This document shows positions 1,539-15,807 of a stretch of 45,521 nucleotides of DNA, one piece after another (position 1 is the stretch's first letter; each line of letters begins with the position of its first letter). The position numbers and the translations under genes were made by a program. The notes below the pieces were generated by a model, which was not told the origin of the DNA, did no database searches, and saw nothing but the letters and a program-made list of their open reading frames with translations. The stretch covers positions 1 through 45,521 of the forward strand of contig DYOB01000010.1 in assembly GCA_020720765.1 (NCBI GenBank), given 5' to 3'. The DNA is from Borreliella garinii. GTDB taxonomy: Bacteria; Spirochaetota; Spirochaetia; JABEVK01.

Positions 1539-2498
1539 TCAAGTAGATTTTTCAAAAATGGGCAATGTTGCTAAAAGAACGGCCTTGGTTGTGTGTTTTC
1601 TGTTCTCGCTTTGATCCCAAACCCTGCTATTCGGCCCTTCCAGGACCTCGGAAGTGACTTCATTCTCCCGTACTGCCGGCAAACAGTGTAGGAAAATCGT
1701 GGATGGTTTCCCGGTTTTTGCCATTGCACGTGCATCGACCTGGTAAGGTTGGAGGAGTTTTATTCTTTGAGAAAGTTTATCCTCTTCACCCATGCTCGCC
1801 CAAACATCGGTATAAACGGCGTCGGCACCCTCGAGGGCCTTGTCCATGTCGTGAACGATCTGGACGGGTTTACCGGAATTGACTAGGTATTTTTTACTTT
1901 CCTCCACCCAATGTGATTCCGGGGTCAGTTCGGGCGGACAGGCAAGGACGAGTTCGATTCCCGCCATGGCGCAACCGAAAATCAAGGTATTGGACATATT
2001 ATTGCGTGCGTCACCGGCGTAAACCAGTTTACGCCCCACGAGTTCGCCCCAGTTTTCCTCCATGGTCATCAGGTCGGCAAGAACCTGCATGGGGTGGAAA
2101 TCGTCGGTCAGACCGTTGTAAACGGGTACGCCCGAGTATTCGGCGAGGATTTCGACGGATTTTTGTTGAAAACCGCGGAACATCAGCCCGTCAAACATCC
2201 GTCCGAGAACCCTTGCTGTATCTTCGATGGTTTCTTTTGCTCCCAGTTGAATTTCACGGGGGCTCAAAAAACTCGGGTGTCCCCCCTCTTCCCCAAAAGC
2301 CGTCTCAAAGGCGCTACGGGTACGGGTGGAAGGTTTTTCAAAGAGCATACCCAGACTCAACCCGTGGAAACGGCTTGCGGCCTCGCGCCTCTTCCTCTGG
2401 GCCTTAACTTCGTGGCTCAGGTCCAAAAGGTAACGGAGTTCAACGTGGCTTAAATCATGCAGTTTAAGCAGGGACCGGCCCAGCATGGGACTCGTCAT
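1539..2498 (-). CDS. argF: Ornithine carbamoyltransferase family protein
   Basis: FEKPSTRTRSAFE, MFRGF, GLTDDFHPMQVLADLMT and HCLPA motifs; start may be 2498 or 2513; overlaps the 3' end of lon. Confidence 0.88.
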   Translation of the reverse strand: MTSPMLGRSLLKLHDLSHVELRYLLDLSHEVKAQRKRREAASRFHGLSLGMLFEKPSTRTRSAFETAFGEEGGHPSFLSPREIQLGAKETIEDTARVLGRMFDGLMFRGFQQKSVEILAEYSGVPVYNGLTDDFHPMQVLADLMTMEENWGELVGRKLVYAGDARNNMSNTLIFGCAMAGIELVLACPPELTPESHWVEESKKYLVNSGKPVQIVHDMDKALEGADAVYTDVWASMGEEDKLSQRIKLLQPYQVDARAMAKTGKPSTIFLHCLPAVRENEVTSEVLEGPNSRVWDQSENRKHTTKAVLLATLPIFEKST

Positions 2499-4887
2499 GG
2501 CCTTCCTCCTCAAATAGGATATCGAAAGCCTCGACCGCTGTCTTTACCCAGTGTATATGTAGATCATCGGTTATTTCGGCGGGAATGTCTTCCATCTGGG
2601 GTTTGTTTTCAGCAGGAAGAATCACCTGGTACAGTTTCTGTCTGTGGGCGGCAAGGAGTTTCTCCTTGAGACCGCCGATAGGGAGGACTTTCCCGGTCAG
2701 GGTAATCTCGCCGGTCATGGCTGTCCCAGAACGCAGCGGAATTTCCTTGATAGCAGAGCAAAGAGCGCTAGCCATCGCAACCCCTGCGCTGGGTCCGTCT
2801 TTTGGGATGGCGCCTTCGGGGAAATGGATATGAACATCCCGGCCTTCCAGTTTCGAAGGTTCGATTCCCAAAAGTGCTGCGTGCGACTTGATAAAACTTA
2901 AAGCAATCCTCGCACTTTCCTTCATAACATCGCCAAGGCTCCCCGTCAGCACAAGCTCGCCCTTTCCGGGGAAAAGTGTGACCTCGACAGGCAGGACGCG
3001 TCCTCCGCTTTCGGTCCAGGCAAGCCCGGCTGCGACACCCGGTCTCTGTTCGGGCATCAGAGCCTCCGGTCGGAGAAGTGGTTGTCCGAGGGCTTCCCGT
3101 ATTCTTTTGGAGTCGATAACGATGGGTGGAAGCACAGGAGTCTCGGCGACCTCCTCGGCCACAATGGTTTCCCGCCGGCCCAGTTCTGGGTGGTCTTCCA
3201 GAATTTTCCGGGCTGTTTTTCTTAAGGCTTGGGCAATATTCCGTTCCAATCCCCTCACCCCGCTTTCAGAAGTGTAGAGATCGACGATATCCTTGACTGC
3301 GGTATCCTCGAAACTCACTTCGAATTGACCCAGTCCATTTTCCATGCGCTGTTTGGGGATTAAAAAATCCTGGGCTATCCTCAGTTTTTCGAGGCTTGTA
3401 TACCCAGGCACCTCGATGACTTCGAGGCGGTCGAGGAGGGGCCGTGTCAGGGTATGGATGCTGTTGGCGGTAGTGATAAAAAGCACCTCGGAGAGATCGT
3501 AGGGAACCTCAAGGTAATGGTCAGAAAAATTTTTATTCTGTTCCGGGTCGAGAACCTCAAGCAATGCGGCGCTCGGGTCGCCCCGATAATCAGAACTCAG
3601 TTTATCGATTTCATCAAGGAGAAAAACAGGGTTCGAGGTACCCGCCCTCTTCATACCCTGGATAATCCTTCCAGGAAGCGCACCGACGTAAGTTTTCCTG
3701 TGTCCGCGGATTTCAGCCTCGTCCCGGACGCCTCCTAGGCTGATCCTCACGAAACTTCGGCCTATGGCCCTCGCTACGCTGCGTCCCAAGCTTGTTTTTC
3801 CCGTACCGGGAGGTCCCAAAAGACAGAGTATAGGGCCTTTCAGTTTTTCCTGTAGAGCGCTGACGGCCAGAAAATCCAGGATCCTGTCCTTAGCCTTTTT
3901 CATATCATAATGGTCTTCGTCGAGAATCTTTGAAGCCGCTGCGATTTCCATATGGTCATCCGACCTCTTATTCCAGGGAAGGTCCGTTATCCACTCGAGG
4001 TAATTCCTGAGAATTCCCGCTTCGGGCGTCGTGGGTTGGAGCTTGCTCAGACGGCTGGCTTCCTTTAAACACTTCTCCCGGATTTCGTCCGAAAGGCTCA
4101 ATTCCTCGATCTTTTTTTTGAGTTCTGCGGCACCCGTAGGATCGCCGTCTTCCTGCCCCAGTTCTTTCTGGATCTCGCGCATTTGTTCGTTGAGGTAATA
4201 CTCTTTCTGGTTGCGGTCCATGCGCCCTTTCACACGTTTGCCTATATCCAGGTTTAAACGCAGAAGCTCGGCTTCAAGCCGGATGGAAACAGCGAGTTCC
4301 TCTAACCTTAAAATGGGATCCAGGGTCACATAGAGTTCTTTTTTCTTTTCTTCGGAAACACTTAAAAACGGAGCAAGCGCATCCACCAGGGAATCGGGTG
4401 TTTCGGCCTGCAGGATGTTTTTCAGTTTGTCCTTCGGGATTTTCTTCTGGATATCCTTCGAATCCTGGAGTGTCCCGATGATGGTCTGCATCAAGGCCGC
4501 CGTCTGCGGCGTGAGGTCAAACTGCGGGGAGATGGTTTCCATCTCTGCGCGGAGATGCGTAGCCGTGAATTGTAACTTAATCAGAACGGCCCGTGCGAGG
4601 GGTTCCACCATAACCCTGACGCTGCCGTCCGGCATTTTCAAAGTCTGCTGGATTCGGGCCACGGTACCCACCTTCTCTAATTCCCCGGTTGCCGAATTAT
4701 CCTTGGGGGGGATGATGATGATTTCTTTTGTGTCGCCCAGGGCCACCTCGACGGCATGGATGGAATCGCGCTCGGTGAGAAAAAAAGGTATGCCATTACC
4801 CGGAAAAAGCAGGGGCTGGTGAAGTGGGAGAACCGTCAGGTTGACACGGGACTTCTTGTTAGGCCGAGTTTTGGTTAGAAAATTCAT
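2464..4887 (-). CDS. lon: ATP-dependent protease Lon (copy 1)
   Basis: 807 aa; LON N-terminal domain, Walker [10 protein letters not shown], catalytic [12 protein letters not shown]. Confidence 0.96.
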
Positions 4888-6142
4888 AGAGCTCCCGATT
4901 CCAAGGCCGGTTGATTTCTTTTGGGTCCGAAAGGACGACAGGCTGCGCTTTTTCTAAAAAGACTTCCTTCGTCATGATCACCTTTTTACGCCCCGGCATA
5001 CTGGGAATTTCGTACATGAGGTCCATCATCGCAGTTTCAATAATCGACCGGATACCACGGGCACCTGTCTTGCGCTTGATAGCGAGTTCTGCGACAGCGT
5101 AGATAGCTTCTTTCTCAAACTCGAGACTTGCCTGATCCATTTCGAAAAGTGTCTGGTACTGTCTAATAATACTGTTTTTGGGTTCGGTCGCCACCCGTAA
5201 AAGATCCTCGATCTTCAGGTCATCGAGGGCGGCTGTGACGGGTAGCCTTCCGATAAACTCCGGGATCAATCCATATCTGATAAGGTCGTCGGGAAGCACT
5301 TCGCGGATAAGCTGGCTCAAGGTGTGCTTATTTCTCGGTGTTACCTCGGCTCCGAAACCCAGGGGCTGGGCGTTCATACGCCTTTCGATAACCTTATCGA
5401 GACCAACAAAAGCACCGCCGCAGATAAAAAGGATATTAGTCGTATCGATGCGTAACATTTCCTGGTTCGGGTGTTTCCGTCCACCCTGTGGCGGCACCGA
5501 GGCCACCGTCCCTTCGATGATTTTCAAAAGAGCTTGTTGAACACCCTCGCCACTGACGTCCCGGGTGATACTGACATTCTCACCCTTCTTAGCGATCTTA
5601 TCGATCTCGTCGATGTAGACAATCCCTCTTTCCGCACTTGCAACGTTATTGCCTGCGGCCTGGATCAGTTTTAAAAGAATATTTTCCACATCTTCACCCA
5701 CGTAACCCGCCTCGGTGAGAGTCGTCGCGTCGGCTATGGCGAAAGGGACACGCAGTTTTTTGGCTAGGGTCCTCGCTAGAAGGGTCTTTCCTGTCCCGGT
5801 GGGTCCAATCATCAGAATATTGCTTTTATCGAGCTCTACACCCTTGTTTATTCCTTCCTGGGTCTGGGTAATCCTCTTGTAATGGTTGTAGACAGCAACA
5901 GAAAGGGTCCGTTTTGCGTCTTCCTGCCCTATAACAAACTCATCGAGGTAACTTTTTAATTCCATCGGTAGAGGGAGGGTAAAATCCAACTCGGGTGCTT
6001 TTGTTTCTTCATCGATAAGGTTCTGGCAGAGCACGATGCATTCGTTGCAGATATTCACAGCCCTGGGACCGCTGATCATACGCTGAACCTGGTTAGCCTT
6101 CTTTCCGCAGAAACTGCACGTCGCCGTATCACCTCTTGCCAT
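4859..6142 (-). CDS. clpX: ATP-dependent Clp protease ATP-binding subunit ClpX
   Basis: N-terminal Cys4 zinc-binding domain (CSFCGK..CNEC), [17 protein letters not shown]. Confidence 0.97.
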
Positions 6143-6755
6143 GGGTTGTTTCCTTTGTAAGCACTCTGTCGATTATACCATACTCCACGGCTGTCGGGGG
6201 TTCCAAAAAGAAATCCCTTTCCATATCTTCGGCTATTTTCTCACGGTCTATCCCCGTGTGTTTGGCGAAAATATCGATGCTCATGGATTTCAACCTGATG
6301 ATTTCCCTCGCTTGAATACCGATATCCCTGGCCTGCCCCTGGACACCGCCCCATGGCTGGTGGATCAGAATACGGCTGTGGGGAAGACTCAGGCGTTTAC
6401 CCTTCTCGCCTCCGGCTAAAAGGAGCGCCGCCATACTTGCTGCCTGCCCCATGCAGATGGTTTGAACATCACAGCGGATGACCTGCATGGTATCGTAAAT
6501 GGCAAGTCCGGCTGTGACACTCCCGCCGGGGGAGTTGATATAGAGGGCTATATCCTTCTCCGGATCCTGGGATTCGAGGAATAAGAGCTGCCCTACCACG
6601 ATATCTGCGGAGAAATCGTCGATCTCCCCGCCCAAAAAAATAATGCGATCCTTGAGCAAACGGGTAAAAATATCGTACCCTCGCTCACCTGTGCTTGTCT
6701 GTTCCCAAACGTTGGGAACATAATGCGCCATCCTGGGTGATTTTTCGGAATTCAT
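6129..6755 (-). CDS. clpP: ATP-dependent Clp protease proteolytic subunit
   Basis: [14 protein letters not shown] and [12 protein letters not shown] motifs; likely start at internal Met (MNSEKSP). Confidence 0.96.
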
Positions 6756-6756
6756 A

Positions 6757-8124
6757 CTATTTATTATCACTCTTTTGACGCGGACCGTCAATCAATTCTT
6801 GAAATGTCTGCCTTGGCCCCTTTTTCACTTTGACTGCGGAGAGAAGGTGGTTGACCGTATTTTTGCGCCGCAAATCGTTTTTCAGGTTTTCCATCATACC
6901 CTTATTCGCATAATATTCGCGGGTTTCCTCGACCGTGATGGTGAACTTTGCCGCAAGTCTTGTGATTTCTTTCTCTTCCAATTCAGGGGTCACTTCAAAC
7001 TTCAGCCCCTCTTCAATGGTTTCCATGATGAGCTGGCGGCGAAGGTGCTGTTCGGCGCCGGGGCGCCAGCCGTCTAAGATTTTCGTTTTGGTAGGTCCCC
7101 CGAAGATCCTGTCGAGCTGCTCCGGCGGTACACGGTTCTGTTGTGCAAGATTTTCCCAGGCCTGACCCAGGTCGATCTGGACCATGGACTCAGGAAGGTC
7201 GATGGAGGTCTTAAGAATTAAAGCGTCCAGCAGTGACTCGACTTTTAGGGATTCTACCTTATCGGCGAGTTTATCTTCAAGACTCTTTTGGATATCCACC
7301 TTGAGGTCCTTTAACGTCGCAAACTTTTCACTGATATCCTGGGCGAAGTCGTCGTCGAGAATAGGAAGTTCCATGGCCTTCAAGACCTTGAGTTTCACAT
7401 AGAGATTTTTTGTCGAACCGGCTAGTTCTTTATGCCCGAAATCTTCGGGATATTCCTTAGTAAAGGTCCTTTCCTCCCCGGCTTTCATACCGGTTAACTC
7501 CCGGTCGAAGTGGTAGAGGTTCTCGGTTTTTCCCAAGGTCATCACGAAGTCCTGGCGCTCCGAACCGGGCAGTACCTTTCCGTCGACGTCGAGTTCGTGG
7601 AAATCCAGGGTCAGGACGTCGCCTTCGGCAGCGCCGCCTGAAGTTTTATTGACCACAACACCGTTTTGTTCCTGTAGGACCTTGAGTTCCTTCGCAATAT
7701 CTTCGTCTCCGATGGAAACTTGGGGTTCGATAACTTCGATCCCCTTGTAGTCCGGAACGGTGAACTGGGGAAATGTGTCGTACTCGACGGTGAATGACAG
7801 GTCTTGGCCGATTTTCAGGTTGAGTTCCTCGTCTATCACGCGTGGGCGGTCGTACGCAAGGGGTTTGAGTTCTGCTTTAGGGAGATTTTCCTTCAATACC
7901 TCTTCAATAAGTTCTTGTAAAGCCTCGGCTTGAAGCGCCTCGCCGAACTTTTTTTCAATGAGGGAAACGGGCACCTTCCCCCTACGGAAACCAGGAAGCT
8001 GGATTTGATCCGTGTACTTGGTTAAAAGCTTACTGTAAGCTCCGTCAACTTCGGTCGATGGCACGTGAAATTTAAGTCTGGCCACGGAGCGCGGCATTCT
8101 TTCCAATTCCATTTTTGCATTCAT
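6757..8124 (-). CDS. tig: Trigger factor
   Basis: Ribosome-binding GFRRGKVP motif, PPIase-like middle domain, adjacency to clpP/clpX; RBS CGGAGG. Confidence 0.95.
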
Positions 8125-8140
8125 GATTTTCCTCCGAGTA

Positions 8141-8173
8141 AAAAAAAGGCAGTCCGGAACTCCGGACCGCCAA
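8141..8173 (-). terminator. Rho-independent terminator of the tRNA operon
   Basis: Minus strand GGCGGTCCGG-AGTT-CCGGACTGCC followed by TTTTTTTT. Confidence 0.85.
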
Positions 8174-8179
8174 TTGTGA

Positions 8180-8251
8180 AGCGAAAGACGGGAGTCGAAC
8201 CCGCGACATCCACCTTGGCAAGGTGGCGCTCTACCACTGAGCTACTTTCGC
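8180..8251 (-). tRNA. tRNA-Gly(GCC)
   Basis: GCGAAAG/CTTTCGC acceptor stem, anticodon loop TTGCCAA, GGTTCGA T-arm. Confidence 0.95.
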
Positions 8252-8281
8252 AATCGGTGAACCTTTAACACGTATCCCCTC

Positions 8282-8363
8282 TGCGAGAGAAGGGACTCGA
8301 ACCCTCACACCTTGCGGCACCAGATCCTAAGTCTGGCGTGTCTACCAATTCCACCACTCTCGC
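8282..8363 (-). tRNA. tRNA-Leu(TAG)
   Basis: GCGAGAG/CTCTCGC acceptor, anticodon loop CTTAGGA, long variable arm. Confidence 0.95.
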
Positions 8364-8364
8364 A

Positions 8365-8393
8365 ATTTTACCAAGCCCCTTTCACCCTGTCAA
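8365..8393 (-). promoter_or_regulatory. Sigma70-type promoter inside the tRNA cluster
   Basis: Minus strand TTGACA-N17-TAAAAT immediately upstream of tRNA-Leu. Confidence 0.65.
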
Positions 8394-8406
8394 GTGTTAA
8401 AGGGTT

Positions 8407-8479
8407 TGAGCCGTGAAGGATTCGAACCTTCGACCCGCAGATTAAGAGTCTGCTGCTCTACCAGCTGAGCTAACGGCCC
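8407..8479 (-). tRNA. tRNA-Lys(CTT)
   Basis: GGGCCGT/ACGGCTC acceptor, anticodon loop CTCTTAA. Confidence 0.94.
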
Positions 8480-8495
8480 TCAAATTTACTCTCGA

Positions 8496-8568
<73 letters not shown>

Positions 8569-8575
8569 AAGCCCG

Positions 8576-8648
8576 GGTGACCGACGGGATTTGAACCCGC
8601 GACAACCAGATCCACAATCTGGTGCTCTACCACTGAACTACGGCCACC
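8576..8648 (-). tRNA. tRNA-His(GTG)
   Basis: Extra G-1 opposite C73, anticodon loop TTGTGGA. Confidence 0.95.
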
Positions 8649-8663
8649 AAGAAACAGGAAAAA

Positions 8664-8692
8664 AGTATACCCAAGCGCCCTCTCGGTGTCAA
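8664..8692 (-). promoter_or_regulatory. Sigma70-type promoter of the tRNA operon
   Basis: Minus strand TTGACA-N17-TATACT, 16 nt upstream of tRNA-His. Confidence 0.82.
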
Positions 8693-9690
8693 TGTACCAT
8701 CTCCAAACCAGCACTTGAATTTGAAGAAAGGCTCTCGCCGGGAATTTCACGTAATGCCCTTTCCACCACCTCTTCAGCGGTCCGGCATTTGAAAGGCGGA
8801 CTGATAAGCTGTTTCCACCGCCTAGAGCCTGGTAAACCTGAAAAAAGACCGCTGAAGTGACGCAAAAGCAGATGCCACCGGTTTCCGGCGTCCTCCCACG
8901 GCTTCCAGTACTCGGACATTTGCTTTAATAAAGATGCACGGGAGGGAGGGATTCCAGACCCGTAGAGGGCCCTTTCTGCGTCTGCCACCAGGTAGGGGTC
9001 GTCGTATGCGGCTCTTCCCAGCATCACCCCGTCGAAAGTTTGCGCAAATCTGAGGATTTCAGAAAGTTGGGTAATTCCACCGTTGATTTCAATGTTCCAG
9101 GACGGAAACTCTTCCTTCAGCCGGACAACATCTTCATAGCGCAAAGGCGGCACGGTACGGTTTTCTTTAGGGCTCAGCCCTTCGAGTATCGCTATGCGGG
9201 CGTGGATGATGAGCCGGGATGCCCCTGCGTTCCAAACGGAGGCGGCAAATTCCCTCATATCCTCGTAAGTCTCCCTTCCTCGGATACCTATTCGGTGTTT
9301 TACAGTGACTGGAACAGAAGGTGCTGACTCAACCATAGCCTTTACCAGACGTGCGCTGAGTTCGGGTTCGGCCATCAGGCAGGCCCCGAAATGGGCTTCC
9401 TGGACCTTGTCGCTCGGACAGCCGCAGTTAAGGTTGATTTCGTCGTAACCCCATTCGACCCCGATAGCAGCTGCCTTGCCGACCATTTGGGGATCATCAG
9501 CGGCGAGTTGAAGAGCCAGAGGGTGTTCAGTAGGGTCAAAATCAAGGAGATGGTTTTTATCCCCGCGAAGTACGGCAGGGGCCGTGATCATCTCCGTGTA
9601 TAAAGTCGTCGAAGGCGCAAGCCTTCGTAAAACCCACCGGAAATGCCTGTCTGTACGGTCTACCATGGGTGCTATGCTTAATCTTGACAC
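8689..9690 (-). CDS. dusA: tRNA-dihydrouridine synthase (DusA-like)
   Basis: SIAPMVDRTDRHFR, INLNCGCPSDKVQEAHFGACLM, VKHRIGI motifs. Confidence 0.93.
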   Translation of the reverse strand: MSRLSIAPMVDRTDRHFRWVLRRLAPSTTLYTEMITAPAVLRGDKNHLLDFDPTEHPLALQLAADDPQMVGKAAAIGVEWGYDEINLNCGCPSDKVQEAHFGACLMAEPELSARLVKAMVESAPSVPVTVKHRIGIRGRETYEDMREFAASVWNAGASRLIIHARIAILEGLSPKENRTVPPLRYEDVVRLKEEFPSWNIEINGGITQLSEILRFAQTFDGVMLGRAAYDDPYLVADAERALYGSGIPPSRASLLKQMSEYWKPWEDAGNRWHLLLRHFSGLFSGLPGSRRWKQLISPPFKCRTAEEVVERALREIPGESLSSNSSAGLEMVH

Positions 9691-9783
9691 GGAAACACAG
9701 TAAACCGTGAAGATTTTCCAGTCAAGACTTAGAGAATGGAGAAAAATTCACCACAATTACCTTGTTTGTGATAAAATAGCCGT

Positions 9784-12700
9784 GTGCAGGAACTCAAAGA
9801 CTACATCAACAGCGAATGGGAAAAGTGCCGCCTGGAAACCCAAAAAGGACAGACGCAATTTTTAATCCTCAACGGGGTACTTCCCGACCAGGCTCAGCTC
9901 GATCTGGAACCCTACCGTCTTCGAGCCTCAGAAGGCCGCCACCTGAGATTTTCCGAATCTTCCCACCTAACAGCTTACGGCCCTTTTTTGGTTTGGATCC
10001 GTACCCTCTGGCTCGCACTTCCTGCGGTAAAAAAAAGCGAATTTAAAAAAAACACAAAGCCTTTACCCATTGTTACAAGCACAGTTTTTTCTTTTTTGGA
10101 AAAAGGGTTCCCCGATGAATGCGACCCTTTCCCCGCCTACCCTGCCGAGGTTGCCTTTTATTCCCGTGGTTTTGATAGGCTCCTGGTTGAGCTCTGGTCT
10201 TTTCTCACAGCTTTTTCCCAACCTCAAATTATTTTTTTGGAGAATCTTCAGTTCGCACCGGACTCCATGATTCGCTTCCTCAATACCTGGTTTAAGAACC
10301 CTTCAGCTTCCCCAATTCTCTTTATGGCTACGTATGAAAAACCCGTGTACTCGCATAGATCCGAAACTTGGGATGAATTTCAAAAACTGATCGATAAATT
10401 TTCACTTAAATTTACCCGACAGCCTGCGAACCTAGGCCGTACTGTAGCTCCAATATCCCATGCACTACCGCTTGAAGCCAACGTCCTTCTGAGAAATGCA
10501 CGTTTTGCCTTTAGATTTCTCGCCCTCGAAGAAGCAAGACGGGACGCACAACTCGGACTCAACCTGCTTAACCAGCAGGAAGAGACAGATTTGGAAGACC
10601 ATGTTTTTGCGTCACTTCTCGGGGATATCCATAACGCTGCCCAACAAAACGACACGGCAATACTTTTTTTAAACCAGGCTCTGCAGTCAGCGCTCCACCA
10701 AGGTGATCTTAAACGCATAGGTCTTATTTATTTAAAACAATCTTTTATTTATTTAAAAAAGGATGACTTGGAAGAGGCCAACCTGCTTTTTAACAAAGCG
10801 ATTAAACTTGTCGAGCCCATAGCCGACGAACCTATGCTCGCGTGGCTGAGTTTTTTAAGTCAAATGCTTGCAACCGGGCGGGGGAGTAACTCCGTCATAA
10901 CCGATGTACAAACCCTCGCCACCCGACTCGAAAAGATGCATTGGAACAACCTTGCCTCCATTTTAAGGGTTCAACCTTTCTATTTGCTGGCCATTTTGAC
11001 TACTTTGGGGGTCGAAGCGGCAGTTAAGGAATGTTTCAAGGTTATCCGGTATTGCCGCAGAACCGGCCATGAGTTTCGTCTGAGCGTAGCTGAACACGCT
11101 ATCGGGATGGTTTTTCAAATGGCCGGTGATGATATAAAAGCACTTATTCATTACCACAAAGCCATACGTCTCCGCTGCACGCTCGGGAACAAGTTGGAGA
11201 TGATCAAGATCTACAATGGAACCGGATATTTCTCTTTTACCCGCGGACGGTTCCACGAAGCCATACGACTCTTTGAGAAAAGCCTGCGTCTCCTGGAAGA
11301 AGTCCATGATTTTCAAGAGATTGCTCTTACACTTTTTAACATTGGTAGCGTCTATATTTTTTCTGGAAATTCTTCTCTAGCCCTCCAGTCTTTTGAGGGG
11401 GTTCTCCGCATCATGGACGAACTCCATCTTCCAGGTATGCCTTTTCACAATAGGTGGGAAATATACGCTTTAATGGGCATCAGCGCCTTTCTTTCCGGTT
11501 TTGAAGAAAAGGCCCGTGATTCCCTCCACCTCTGTTTGGTCAGTTCACCACCTTCCCGCCATGACCTTATCAAGCTCCTCGATTTTCTTGTCAACGCCAC
11601 ACATTCCGATCATAAAAAGGTTGCTAACGAGTGGGAAGAACTTTCTAGCAGGCTTACCCATTCCTTTGAAATACCCATGGAAGGCTTGATCGACCTAGTA
11701 AATACAGTTATCGCCATAGGTTCGGCAGAAGAACATGCACCTATAAGACTTCCTAAACTCGTGCTTCATATCGAAAGTATCCTTGACTCCGCCCGACAGG
11801 AAGCGAGTCTTAACCACCTGCATAAAAAGATAAACGAGATCCAATTCCTCAATAACCTACAGGCTATTATCGTCCACACCTCCACCTGGCAGGACCTGGT
11901 CAGGGATTCCATGCACCTTGTGAAAAACAGTTTCCTTGCATCGTACCTCTACCTTGTGCTCGTCAACCAGAAAAACCAGAAGGAACTCGTGTTTTCCCAA
12001 CCTGATTCTGGTACGGGAAAAATTGATTTTTGGAAGGACTTGGGACAATGGGCGGACGTGAAGTCGGAACAGATCGTGTCCCCTGAAAAACTCCCGGCAG
12101 GGATCGGAAGCCTGCTCGCACTTCCCCTGGTCCAGTCCGACGATGTCTCCGGTGCCATGATCTGCGCAACGAGCGAAAGGGAACCTCCACTCTCAACCGA
12201 CGACCTGAAAGCCCTCTCGATTGCAGTACGGCAAATCGCCATGGCGGTGGAGTTGAAAAGGGCGAACGAAAAACTTATCCGTGCCGCGACTATAGACAGC
12301 CTCACCGGGCTCCTCAACAGGCAGGAAGTCTATAAGATGATGGCCAACGAAAGAAAAAGGGTTCTCCGGTATAAAGGAAAATCTTACGGCCCCTTTAGTC
12401 TTCTTTTTATCGATTTGGATAATTTCAAATATTATAACGACGAGTTCGGACACACTGTCGGGGACCTGGTTCTTTTACTTTTTGCAGATTTAATCCGGAA
12501 GGTGATTAGGGATGTCGACATAGCCGGTAGGTTCGGAGGGGACGAGTTTCTCATTATCCTGCCCGAGACCGACATGCTTGGGGCAAAAATTGCAGCCCAG
12601 AGAATTTTCGAGGAAATGGAACTCCGGAAAGCTTTCCAAGACGACATCAATAGTTTCTTAAAAAAACGGATATCGATCCCCGAGGCAAATCTTATCACGT

Positions 12701-12861
12701 GTTCTATCGGAATCACCGAATTCACCAACACATTGAATATGGATATCGAAGAACTCGTCGCTCGTGCCGACAACGCCCTCTATGAAGCTAAACGCGCTGG
12801 TAAGAACAGGGTAGTTTTGATCGATAATTCACAGACGACTCTCAAGCCAGCGGTCAAGTAA
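9784..12861 (+). CDS. TPR-GAF-GGDEF diguanylate cyclase with degenerate STAND-like NTPase N-terminus
   Basis: 1025 aa; C-terminal RDVD-IAGRF-GGDEF (I-site plus active site); TPR-like repeats; Walker-B-like IIFLENLQFAPD without a canonical P-loop. Confidence 0.88.
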   Translation: MQELKDYINSEWEKCRLETQKGQTQFLILNGVLPDQAQLDLEPYRLRASEGRHLRFSESSHLTAYGPFLVWIRTLWLALPAVKKSEFKKNTKPLPIVTSTVFSFLEKGFPDECDPFPAYPAEVAFYSRGFDRLLVELWSFLTAFSQPQIIFLENLQFAPDSMIRFLNTWFKNPSASPILFMATYEKPVYSHRSETWDEFQKLIDKFSLKFTRQPANLGRTVAPISHALPLEANVLLRNARFAFRFLALEEARRDAQLGLNLLNQQEETDLEDHVFASLLGDIHNAAQQNDTAILFLNQALQSALHQGDLKRIGLIYLKQSFIYLKKDDLEEANLLFNKAIKLVEPIADEPMLAWLSFLSQMLATGRGSNSVITDVQTLATRLEKMHWNNLASILRVQPFYLLAILTTLGVEAAVKECFKVIRYCRRTGHEFRLSVAEHAIGMVFQMAGDDIKALIHYHKAIRLRCTLGNKLEMIKIYNGTGYFSFTRGRFHEAIRLFEKSLRLLEEVHDFQEIALTLFNIGSVYIFSGNSSLALQSFEGVLRIMDELHLPGMPFHNRWEIYALMGISAFLSGFEEKARDSLHLCLVSSPPSRHDLIKLLDFLVNATHSDHKKVANEWEELSSRLTHSFEIPMEGLIDLVNTVIAIGSAEEHAPIRLPKLVLHIESILDSARQEASLNHLHKKINEIQFLNNLQAIIVHTSTWQDLVRDSMHLVKNSFLASYLYLVLVNQKNQKELVFSQPDSGTGKIDFWKDLGQWADVKSEQIVSPEKLPAGIGSLLALPLVQSDDVSGAMICATSEREPPLSTDDLKALSIAVRQIAMAVELKRANEKLIRAATIDSLTGLLNRQEVYKMMANERKRVLRYKGKSYGPFSLLFIDLDNFKYYNDEFGHTVGDLVLLLFADLIRKVIRDVDIAGRFGGDEFLIILPETDMLGAKIAAQRIFEEMELRKAFQDDINSFLKKRISIPEANLITCSIGITEFTNTLNMDIEELVARADNALYEAKRAGKNRVVLIDNSQTTLKPAVK

Positions 12862-13536
12862 AGGAAAAAGCACTACCTTGGTCAGCTGGCTGAATTGCGC
12901 TGTTCGGGTAAGTATGTCATCGGGGCTCTGCACCATTTCAGGGCACGTTTGCAGTCCGGTAGCGATATATTCCCTGTCCGATTCGATAAAGGATTCCACT
13001 TGATCCGTTCCCACTTCAAGATGAAACTGAAGGGCCAGTGTCGAGGGAGGCATCAAGAATCCCTGAAGAAACCCGGGTGAGCTTTCGCCCAGAGTAACTG
13101 CGCCTTCGGGCAGGCTGAAGGTGTCCCCGTGCCAATGCAAAACTGTGAAGGGTCCCTTTTCAACCCCGAGAATTTCAGCGCCACGAGGCGTTAAATCCAC
13201 GGGAAACCACCCGATTTCTTTTTTTCCCGAAGCCCAGACCCTTCCACCCATAGCATGCGATAGCAATTGTGCCCCAAGACAAATTCCCAGGACGGGGAGA
13301 CTTCCTATGGCTTGTTTTAAAAGGGCAACCTCTTCGTCTAACCAGAAATATTTGCCAGTTTCGTACACCCCCATAGGCCCTCCCATCACGAGAAGGCCAT
13401 CGTAGTCCTTCCAATTCGGAGGTGCTGTTTCGGTCCCGAAAAGGTATTCGGTATATGTATGCCCCCTATCCTGGAACCAATTCAAAATCATACCGGGTCT
13501 TTCCGTTGGAGTGTGTTCAAAAACTAAGATTTTCAT
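12829..13536 (-). CDS. Class I glutamine amidotransferase (GMP synthase-like GATase)
   Basis: GICLGAQLLSHAMGG nucleophile elbow and QFHLEV; start at internal Met MKILVFEHT overlapping the upstream stop (TAATG). Confidence 0.88.
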   Translation of the reverse strand: MKILVFEHTPTERPGMILNWFQDRGHTYTEYLFGTETAPPNWKDYDGLLVMGGPMGVYETGKYFWLDEEVALLKQAIGSLPVLGICLGAQLLSHAMGGRVWASGKKEIGWFPVDLTPRGAEILGVEKGPFTVLHWHGDTFSLPEGAVTLGESSPGFLQGFLMPPSTLALQFHLEVGTDQVESFIESDREYIATGLQTCPEMVQSPDDILTRTAQFSQLTKVVLFPLLDRWLESRL

Positions 13537-14108
13537 TAAAAGAAGCTCGCCTGTCCGCCGGGGTTGAGCCTTTTCAAGCACTGCAGGAAAAGCTCCTGGC
13601 ATACCCGCGCATCGTCCTTGGCTCTGTGGGCCGAGCCCGTTTCGATTTCTAAATCGCGGGCCAGGTTTTGAAGTTTATAGGACTTTCGTTCGGGGAATGC
13701 CTGTTTCGACATGGGAAGAGTATCAACAATTTTATGCGGAAGGTCCGAACCCAGGCCGTGCGAGGCCATGCTCCTAAGAATGAAGTTGACATCAAACTCG
13801 GCGTTATGCGCCAAAAGGATGGTCCCTTGTGCAAACTCGAGAAAGCGTGGAAGCACTACGCGTATATCGGGTTTTCCTACCAGCATGTCTTCGGTAATCC
13901 CATGGATTTCCACCGACTGGGGCGGAAGAGGTATTCCGGGGGAAATCAATTCCTGGAAGGTATCAACCACCTCGCCATTTTGAAACTTTACTGCACCCAA
14001 CTCGATGATCCTGTCCAGCGTCGGACTCAGCCCCGTTGTTTCGATGTCAAAGGCGACGAAAACCGTATCCGGATTCTCCAGCCAGCTGTAGGTAGACAGG
14101 ATTTCCAT
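13536..14108 (-). CDS. DnaQ-like 3'-5' exonuclease (DNA polymerase III epsilon family)
   Basis: FVAFDIETTGLSP, HNAEFDVNF, HRAKDDA exonuclease motifs. Confidence 0.92.
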   Translation of the reverse strand: MEILSTYSWLENPDTVFVAFDIETTGLSPTLDRIIELGAVKFQNGEVVDTFQELISPGIPLPPQSVEIHGITEDMLVGKPDIRVVLPRFLEFAQGTILLAHNAEFDVNFILRSMASHGLGSDLPHKIVDTLPMSKQAFPERKSYKLQNLARDLEIETGSAHRAKDDARVCQELFLQCLKRLNPGGQASFF

Positions 14109-14109
14109 T

Positions 14110-15807
14110 TTAGCTTAAGACCGAATCCAGGGAGCGCCTGAGGATGTCCGCCTTAGTGTCAGCTTCTGCCTTACCTTCGCTCAGAGGGATTCCCGCTGGA
14201 CCCCGGCAGCTCGCGTAAATCTTGATCTTGGGTTCGGTGCCTGACGGCCTTACCGAAACCAGGGAGCCATCCTTGAGTAAAAACTGGATAACATCCGAAG
14301 GCGGGAAATTTTCCCCTTTTAAGTAGTCTATCACCCTGTCGGTTTCCATATCCTCAAAGCGTGCAGGAGGGTGTTGCCTCAGCCTTTTCATAATGTTTTT
14401 CATATTTTCCATACCGGACTGGCCCGGGAAATTTTTAGAAATTAAAATCTCTTTGAAATACCCGAATTCAGCGTAGATGCTGTCGAGTTTATCCAACAGG
14501 TTCAAACCTTGTCCGGCGTAGAAAAGGGTCATTTCAAGGACCAGTATTGCCGTTGCTACCGCATCCTTGTCCCGTACCTTTGTCCCATAAAGAAAGCCGT
14601 AACTCTCCTCGCCGCCGAAGACGTACTTCGGGCCGTGGTGCGTTTCCCATTCCCTGATCTTCTCACCGATATATTTAAACCCTGTCAGAACCTTAAAGGT
14701 CTGGGCTCCATACTTTTTCGCTATAAGGACCTGCAAGTCCGAGGTGACTATCGTATTCACAAAGGCCGGACGAGGAGGCATTTTCCCCAGCTCCTTTAGG
14801 CTGGAAAAAATATACTCGGTGAGAAGCGATCCCAACTGGTTTCCGTTCAGAAGGGTCCATTCACCCGACCGTTTCACGGCAATACCGATTCTGTCGGCGT
14901 CAGGGTCGGTGGCGAGAACCAGATTGGCCCCTTCCCTGTCAGCCTGTTCGATGGCCATTTTCAGGGCACCGGCCTCTTCGGGGTTGGGGGATTTAACGGT
15001 GGGAAAGCCTCCGTCCGCTACCATTTGTTCGGGAACCGTGCTCAAGGTGAAACCCAGTTTTTGAGCGAGCTGGGGAATCAAGGTCATGCCCGCTCCGTGA
15101 AGCGGAGAATAGACGGCCTTAAAGCCACCGGCTTTTTGAAAGACTTCCGGTCTGAGAAGGGATTCGACAACCGAAGCCGTATAGGCATCATCGACCTCTT
15201 TATCCACCCAAACTAAAAGTCCGCGTTTCTCAGCATCTTCCCTTGTGAGTTTTTTTATCTGTCCTGCAGAACGGACCTTATCAATAATACCCTTATCGTG
15301 GGGCGGGACAATCTGTGCCCCGTCTGACCAGTAGGCTTTGTAACCGTTGTATTCCGGCGGATTATGACTTGCGGTCACCATAATGCCCGTCTGGGCCTCA
15401 AAAAAGCGCACGGCAAAACTGAGTTCGGGAGTGGGCCGCAAGGAAGAAAAAAGGTAGGTTTTAATACCGTTTCCAGCAAGAACCAAGGCAGCTTCGAGGG
15501 AAAAAAGGTCGGAATAATTTCTATTATCGTGGGCAATGACCGCAGACGGGTGGGAACCGCCGTTTGCAAGGACATACTCGGCCAGACCCTGCGTGGCCCG
15601 CGCCACGACATAGGGGTTAATGCGGTTGGTACCGCCACCGATGATTCCTCGGATTCCACCTGTCCCAAAGCTCAGTTCGGTATAAAATCTTTCTCTGAGT
15701 TCATTTTCCGCCCCTGCTTGGAGGAGATCTGAAACCTCTTTCAAAAAGATGGGGTTGGTTTCCCTTGAAAGGTAGTTTTTCGCAAGTTTCTCAATGTCGT
15801 GTTCCAT
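14110..15807 (-). CDS. Phosphoglucomutase/phosphomannomutase
   Basis: GTGGIRGIIGGG, catalytic TASHNPPEYNGYK, DPDADRIGIA; start placed at MEHDIEK behind a GGGGGAGG RBS. Confidence 0.93.
   Translation of the reverse strand: MEHDIEKLAKNYLSRETNPIFLKEVSDLLQAGAENELRERFYTELSFGTGGIRGIIGGGTNRINPYVVARATQGLAEYVLANGGSHPSAVIAHDNRNYSDLFSLEAALVLAGNGIKTYLFSSLRPTPELSFAVRFFEAQTGIMVTASHNPPEYNGYKAYWSDGAQIVPPHDKGIIDKVRSAGQIKKLTREDAEKRGLLVWVDKEVDDAYTASVVESLLRPEVFQKAGGFKAVYSPLHGAGMTLIPQLAQKLGFTLSTVPEQMVADGGFPTVKSPNPEEAGALKMAIEQADREGANLVLATDPDADRIGIAVKRSGEWTLLNGNQLGSLLTEYIFSSLKELGKMPPRPAFVNTIVTSDLQVLIAKKYGAQTFKVLTGFKYIGEKIREWETHHGPKYVFGGEESYGFLYGTKVRDKDAVATAILVLEMTLFYAGQGLNLLDKLDSIYAEFGYFKEILISKNFPGQSGMENMKNIMKRLRQHPPARFEDMETDRVIDYLKGENFPPSDVIQFLLKDGSLVSVRPSGTEPKIKIYASCRGPAGIPLSEGKAEADTKADILRRSLDSVLS

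Follow-up and report, generated by a model that had tools for sequence, protein, structure and literature searches.

The E. coli metY-rimP-nusA-infB operon has promoters before metY, two terminators, t1 and t2, before rimP, and, on the 3′ side of metY, a further promoter known as P2 (PMC6511841). Autoregulation of the operon by NusA through these terminators has been proposed, as stated with a reference in PMC4448216. This operon is the closest known system to the locus described here, in which tRNA genes likewise come first, with promoters on their 5′ side and a terminator before the protein genes of a housekeeping operon that is predicted to be reached by read-through. The tRNAs and proteins differ between the two, and both this further promoter next to metY and the proposed NusA feedback are E. 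coli features. The mixed tRNA-mRNA operons thrU-tyrU-glyT-thrT-tufB of E. coli and rplS-tRNA-Arg of S. agalactiae are also comparable in that tRNA and protein genes form one unit and are separated by processing. The classical tufB operon is not known to contain a strong terminator at its tRNA-protein junction. In spirochaetes, tig is not discussed in the main text of papers on Borrelia 3′ ends and on the T. pallidum transcriptome.

The window, the whole 45,521-nt stretch of DNA that was analysed, forms a single contig in a genome of 3.4 Mb, and Spirochaetia/Spirochaetales metagenome bins are the closest relatives that carry a name. On its minus strand, the single-copy tig gene of this genome follows P1, tRNA-His, tRNA-Arg, tRNA-Lys, P2, tRNA-Leu, tRNA-Gly and a hairpin, in that order (Table 1). 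As in the metY-nusA layout, a promoter 5′ of the tRNA and a terminator before the protein gene are found on one strand. The genes from tig to argF touch or overlap one another, consistent with a single operon. The first-pass annotation had already named this tig-clpP-clpX-lon-argF string, which was borne out by curated models for tig, clpX, lon and argF, all passing their NCBIfam cut-offs, and by the subfamily model for ClpP, which scored above the subfamily cut-off and slightly below that of TIGR00493.

Table 1 Predicted features of the tRNA-tig region in the window (promoter scores from a sigma70 weight matrix).
Feature	Position	Strand	Description
P1	8664..8692	−	sigma70-type promoter, TTGACA-17-TATACT, before tRNA-His; −35 overlaps the dusA stop codon; 15.0 bits
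tRNA-His(GTG)	8575..8647	−	
tRNA-Arg(TCG)	8494..8569	−	
tRNA-Lys(CTT)	8407..8479	−	
P2	8365..8393	−	near-consensus promoter, TTGACA-17-(TG)TAAAAT, between tRNA-Lys and tRNA-Leu; −10 abuts tRNA-Leu; 16.2 bits
tRNA-Leu(TAG)	8281..8364	−	
tRNA-Gly(GCC)	8180..8251	−	
Terminator hairpin	8148..8171	−	intrinsic terminator, GGCGGTCCGG-AGTT-CCGGACTGCC, 10 bp, stem conserved class-wide
U8 (T8) tract	8140..8147	−	U tract of the terminator
Shine-Dalgarno of tig	8131..8136	−	CGGAGG, read from the sequence
tig	6757..8124	−	trigger factor, 455 aa; TIGR00115
clpP	6129..6755	−	ATG at 6755 used as the start, 1 nt past the tig stop
clpX	4859..6142	−	overlaps the clpP end
lon	2464..4887	−	overlaps the clpX end
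argF	1539..2513	−	ornithine carbamoyltransferase; overlaps the lon end

The 55 nt separating the end of tRNA-Gly (8180) from the tig ATG (8124) read TCACAATT GGCGGTCCGG AGTT CCGGACTGCC TTTTTTTT ACT CGGAGG AAAATC. The hairpin and its T8 tract together span 8171-8140, beginning 8 nt past tRNA-Gly and ending 15 nt before the ATG. The stem consists of 10 perfect pairs, 8 of them GC, closed by a 4-nt loop and followed directly by the T tract, showing the GC-rich stem of at least 5 pairs, the short loop and the U tract expected of an intrinsic terminator. The isolated hairpin had a folding energy of −19.7 kcal/mol, and the fold of the 70-nt junction had z = −3.1, with an equally good fold in 2 of 200 shuffles; pairing between the U tract and the Shine-Dalgarno sequence was present in the MFE fold and absent from the centroid. 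The hairpin ranked first among the 11 terminator-like sites in the 7.5 kb from 7000 to 14500, a region whose shuffles yielded 11.2 such sites of any strength. The spacing of tRNA-Gly to tig and the strong hairpin with an 8-T tract were thus as described in the first-pass annotation, which had placed the T tract about 17 nt before tig, within 2 nt of the actual distance, and the ribosome-binding site immediately behind it, where ACT in fact intervenes. A 61-nt junction of the same layout in one genome of the same genus indicated that the junction in the window is not an assembly artefact.

Comparison of the tig loci in 41 genomes (the window genome and 40 relatives) showed a tRNA cluster immediately upstream of tig in most of them, spread over about 30 families, usually His-Arg-Lys-Leu-Gly and at times Leu-Gly alone or another subset. 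In nearly all loci with such a cluster, tRNA-Gly was followed by a hairpin. The stem sequence is conserved (GGCG[A/G]UC...G[A/G]UCGCC), and the 5′ arm matched [AG]GCG[AG][TC][TC] in 29 of 34 cases. From the base, the pairs were G-C/A-U/G-U, G-C, C-G, G-C, A-U/G-U/G-C, U-A/U-G/C-G, C-G/U-A and C-G/U-A. Two-sided changes that retained pairing were found at 9 of 11 stem pairs, and the changes in the stem were almost all transitions, the type able to pass through G-U; a pairing constraint alone therefore suffices to account for the recognisable stem, making a sequence-specific binder unnecessary. The exact stem pattern occurred at 23 sites in the 41 genomes, and tig loci accounted for 18 of these; the reversed control pattern matched once.

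When 118 genomes of the class were scanned with a covariance model of the hairpin, 72 of the 114 that have tig showed a match 15-234 nt before this gene. This count is a lower bound, since several genomes scored as negative (L149, L153, L156, L159 and L166) nevertheless carry the hairpin below threshold. Among the 72, the window genome has the smallest gap between hairpin and tig. The hairpin started 1-15 nt past tRNA-Gly (median 10) in 35 of 36 loci, and the gap between T tract and tig varied from 15 to 404 nt in the 36 loci. The fixed spacing to the tRNA and free spacing to tig indicate that the hairpin belongs to the tRNA unit, and its features identify it as an ordinary predicted intrinsic terminator of the His-Arg-Lys-Leu-Gly tRNA operon. 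A trailer sRNA of the kind derived from E. coli 3′ETS-leuZ was ruled out because conservation was limited to the stem and absent from the loop and the single-stranded flanks, and a DNA-binding palindrome because the spacing of the half-sites was variable. A dispersed repeat or general terminator motif was likewise ruled out by the location at tig of 38 of the 40 best matches in the 118 genomes; one of the remaining two was the same tRNA-Gly-tig junction in a genome where tig had been missed. The other off-target matches inspected were terminators remote from any tRNA.

When a sigma70 weight matrix built from generally known base frequencies was applied to the 620 nt before tig (sites unlike sigma70 would escape detection), two strong sites emerged, P2 and P1, followed by a runner-up of 8.3 bits. 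No promoter-like site matched this matrix between the T tract and the ATG, a 15-nt interval too short to fit one, in agreement with the first-pass claim that this gap lacks room for an independent promoter. In keeping with a read-through operon of the metY-nusA type, access to the protein genes from a promoter downstream of the terminator is excluded by space, which leaves read-through as the most probable origin of tig-clpP-clpX-lon mRNA in the window genome. The same annotation had offered read-through and promoters within the tRNA cluster as two options. P1 and P2 are indeed located upstream, but they do not constitute an alternative, because all cluster promoters found lie before the hairpin and would require read-through whichever is used.

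Most probably, the terminator of the tRNA operon acts as a fixed attenuator, stopping the majority of P1 and P2 transcripts and allowing a constant leak that generates the tig-clpP-clpX-lon-argF mRNA. Transcripts from both promoters would mostly end at the U8 tract and mature into tRNAs, and a small fixed share of polymerases would pass into the protein genes. RNase P and 3′ tRNA processing would release the mRNA from the tRNA portion, and tig would be translated from its own Shine-Dalgarno sequence just behind the U tract. The terminator would thereby scale an abundant RNA unit to mRNA level as a constitutive attenuator, and chaperone/protease output would track the activity of the tRNA promoters. 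A 10-bp GC-rich hairpin followed by U8 should be strong, so the leak could be too small for so important an operon.

A promoter of tig itself, overlapping tRNA-Gly or the hairpin in the manner of the rimP-nusA P2 at the 3′ side of metY, has this precedent in E. coli; we regard it as unlikely in the window. The candidate there is a weak TTGCCA-17-TCGACT match inside tRNA-Gly (7.2 bits), which is dictated by the tRNA sequence and would start transcription at about 8186, still ahead of the entire hairpin, and no site above 3 bits in the sigma70 matrix was predicted to start within or past the hairpin in the window. Two loci of at least one related genus (L012 and L014) do have a convincing tig promoter, TTTCCA-17-TATATT, just past the terminator (12.7 bits) with its −35 inside the hairpin, indicating that read-through is not universal in the class. 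The expectation that most relatives would contain a clear tig promoter past the terminator was only weakly supported: a significant one was present in none of the 7 loci of the window's family and, at p < 0.05, in 7 of the 52 loci outside it, where 2.6 were expected. The class thus appears to be mixed, and many of its members, the window above all, seem from their sequences to rely on transcription that enters from the tRNA genes.

The word gate, used in the first-pass annotation for the terminator, is apt only if taken weakly, to mean a fixed attenuator. A regulated gate, with read-through modulated by NusA or NusG level or an antiterminator, for example, and tig-clp-lon responding to stress or tRNA state, is rather improbable. 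The class-wide, locus-specific conservation of the stem sequence might suggest such regulation, as might the analogy with E. coli metY-nusA, for which autoregulation by NusA via the terminators has been proposed (PMC4448216). However, the pairing-preserving transitions account for the conservation; the loop, the flanks and the distance to tig are unconserved; and the predicted junction structures contain only the tRNA and the hairpin, with no alternative, antiterminator-like fold. Rfam returned only tRNAs at the locus, with no known RNA regulator such as a regulated attenuator or riboswitch, and the CIRCE inverted repeat that would point to HrcA had no match with up to three mismatches in the whole window. 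Apart from the metY-nusA analogy, then, nothing supports regulation at this site. A main role in the tig mRNA left after removal of tRNA-Gly, either as a 5′ stabiliser or as a processing mark, is highly improbable for the hairpin: it would lie at the very start of that mRNA, 8 nt past the tRNA, but its free distance to tig, its fixed distance to the tRNA and the U tract behind it fit termination.

The terminator is not found at every tig locus of the class, and its absence from some relatives, like other tRNA-ORF junctions of the window genome, speaks for transcription of tig from upstream of tRNA-Gly. In six loci (L025, L043, L075, L078, L157 and L168), tRNA-Gly leads straight into tig at 41-75 nt with no terminator, and none is present at the 110-nt tRNA-Gly-tig junction of L158; the conserved hairpin is missing between the two genes in L158 and in L157/L168. 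In the window genome, several other tRNAs are followed by an ORF 11-50 nt on with no recognised terminator, a common arrangement; examples at 11-40 nt include tRNAs for Met, Ala, Gln, Phe and Arg (contigs C165, C411, C410, C318 and C139). Of 19 readable loci from Spirochaetota classes other than Spirochaetia, 9 had tRNA-Gly 61-205 nt before tig and one more had it at 582 nt, and the conserved hairpin was not seen in the last 110 nt before tig in these classes. Judged by this distribution, the tRNA-Gly-tig linkage predates the class, and the conserved hairpin is seen only within it.

The position of P2 relative to tRNA-Leu is peculiar. Since its −10 box adjoins the tRNA, a P2 start at the customary 6-8 nt past this box would fall at about 8357-8359, inside the acceptor stem, and P2 transcripts should then begin within tRNA-Leu. 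For the remaining 24 tRNA promoters or best sites scored in the window genome (two low-scoring non-sites left out), 8 nt or more separate the −10 from the tRNA, and none of the 36 tRNA-His promoters of the class lies nearer than 10 nt. Significant P2-like promoters were present in 28 of 36 Lys-Leu spacers across the class, and of 40 P2-like sites of at least 9 bits, 22 ended 0-4 nt and 18 ended 9-78 nt before tRNA-Leu. We infer that P2 either uses an unusually short start distance or, in many genera, would serve tRNA-Gly and the genes downstream rather than tRNA-Leu. It is possible, though doubtful, that P2 acts as an intra-tRNA promoter in many Spirochaetia and is kept for tRNA-Gly and, via attenuated terminator read-through, for tig-clp-lon; transcripts starting inside tRNA-Leu would yield no intact tRNA-Leu.

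The core of the arrangement is conserved class-wide, and the read-through arrangement is of a kind already known; what stands out is the uncommonly well conserved stem and the oddly placed internal promoter. From a single window alone, the hairpin would be an ordinary terminator. Across the class, the conserved terminator and the oddly placed P2 offer a natural series of tig junctions: some with the terminator, some lacking it, and some in which a private promoter comes after it. If the fixed-attenuator reading is true, these spirochaetes would set the amounts of their main ribosome-bound chaperone and of two housekeeping proteases by leakage from the tRNA operon, and protein-folding capacity would be coupled to tRNA output.

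Minor variations were observed around the cluster. A tandem duplicate of tRNA-Gly occurs just upstream of tig in three loci (L035, L147 and L151), and tRNA-Leu is duplicated in L074. At the upstream end of the cluster in the window, the stop codon of dusA (tRNA-dihydrouridine synthase, 8689-9690) lies within the −35 box TTGACA of P1 (8687-8692), so that a tRNA-modification gene leads straight into the tRNA promoter.
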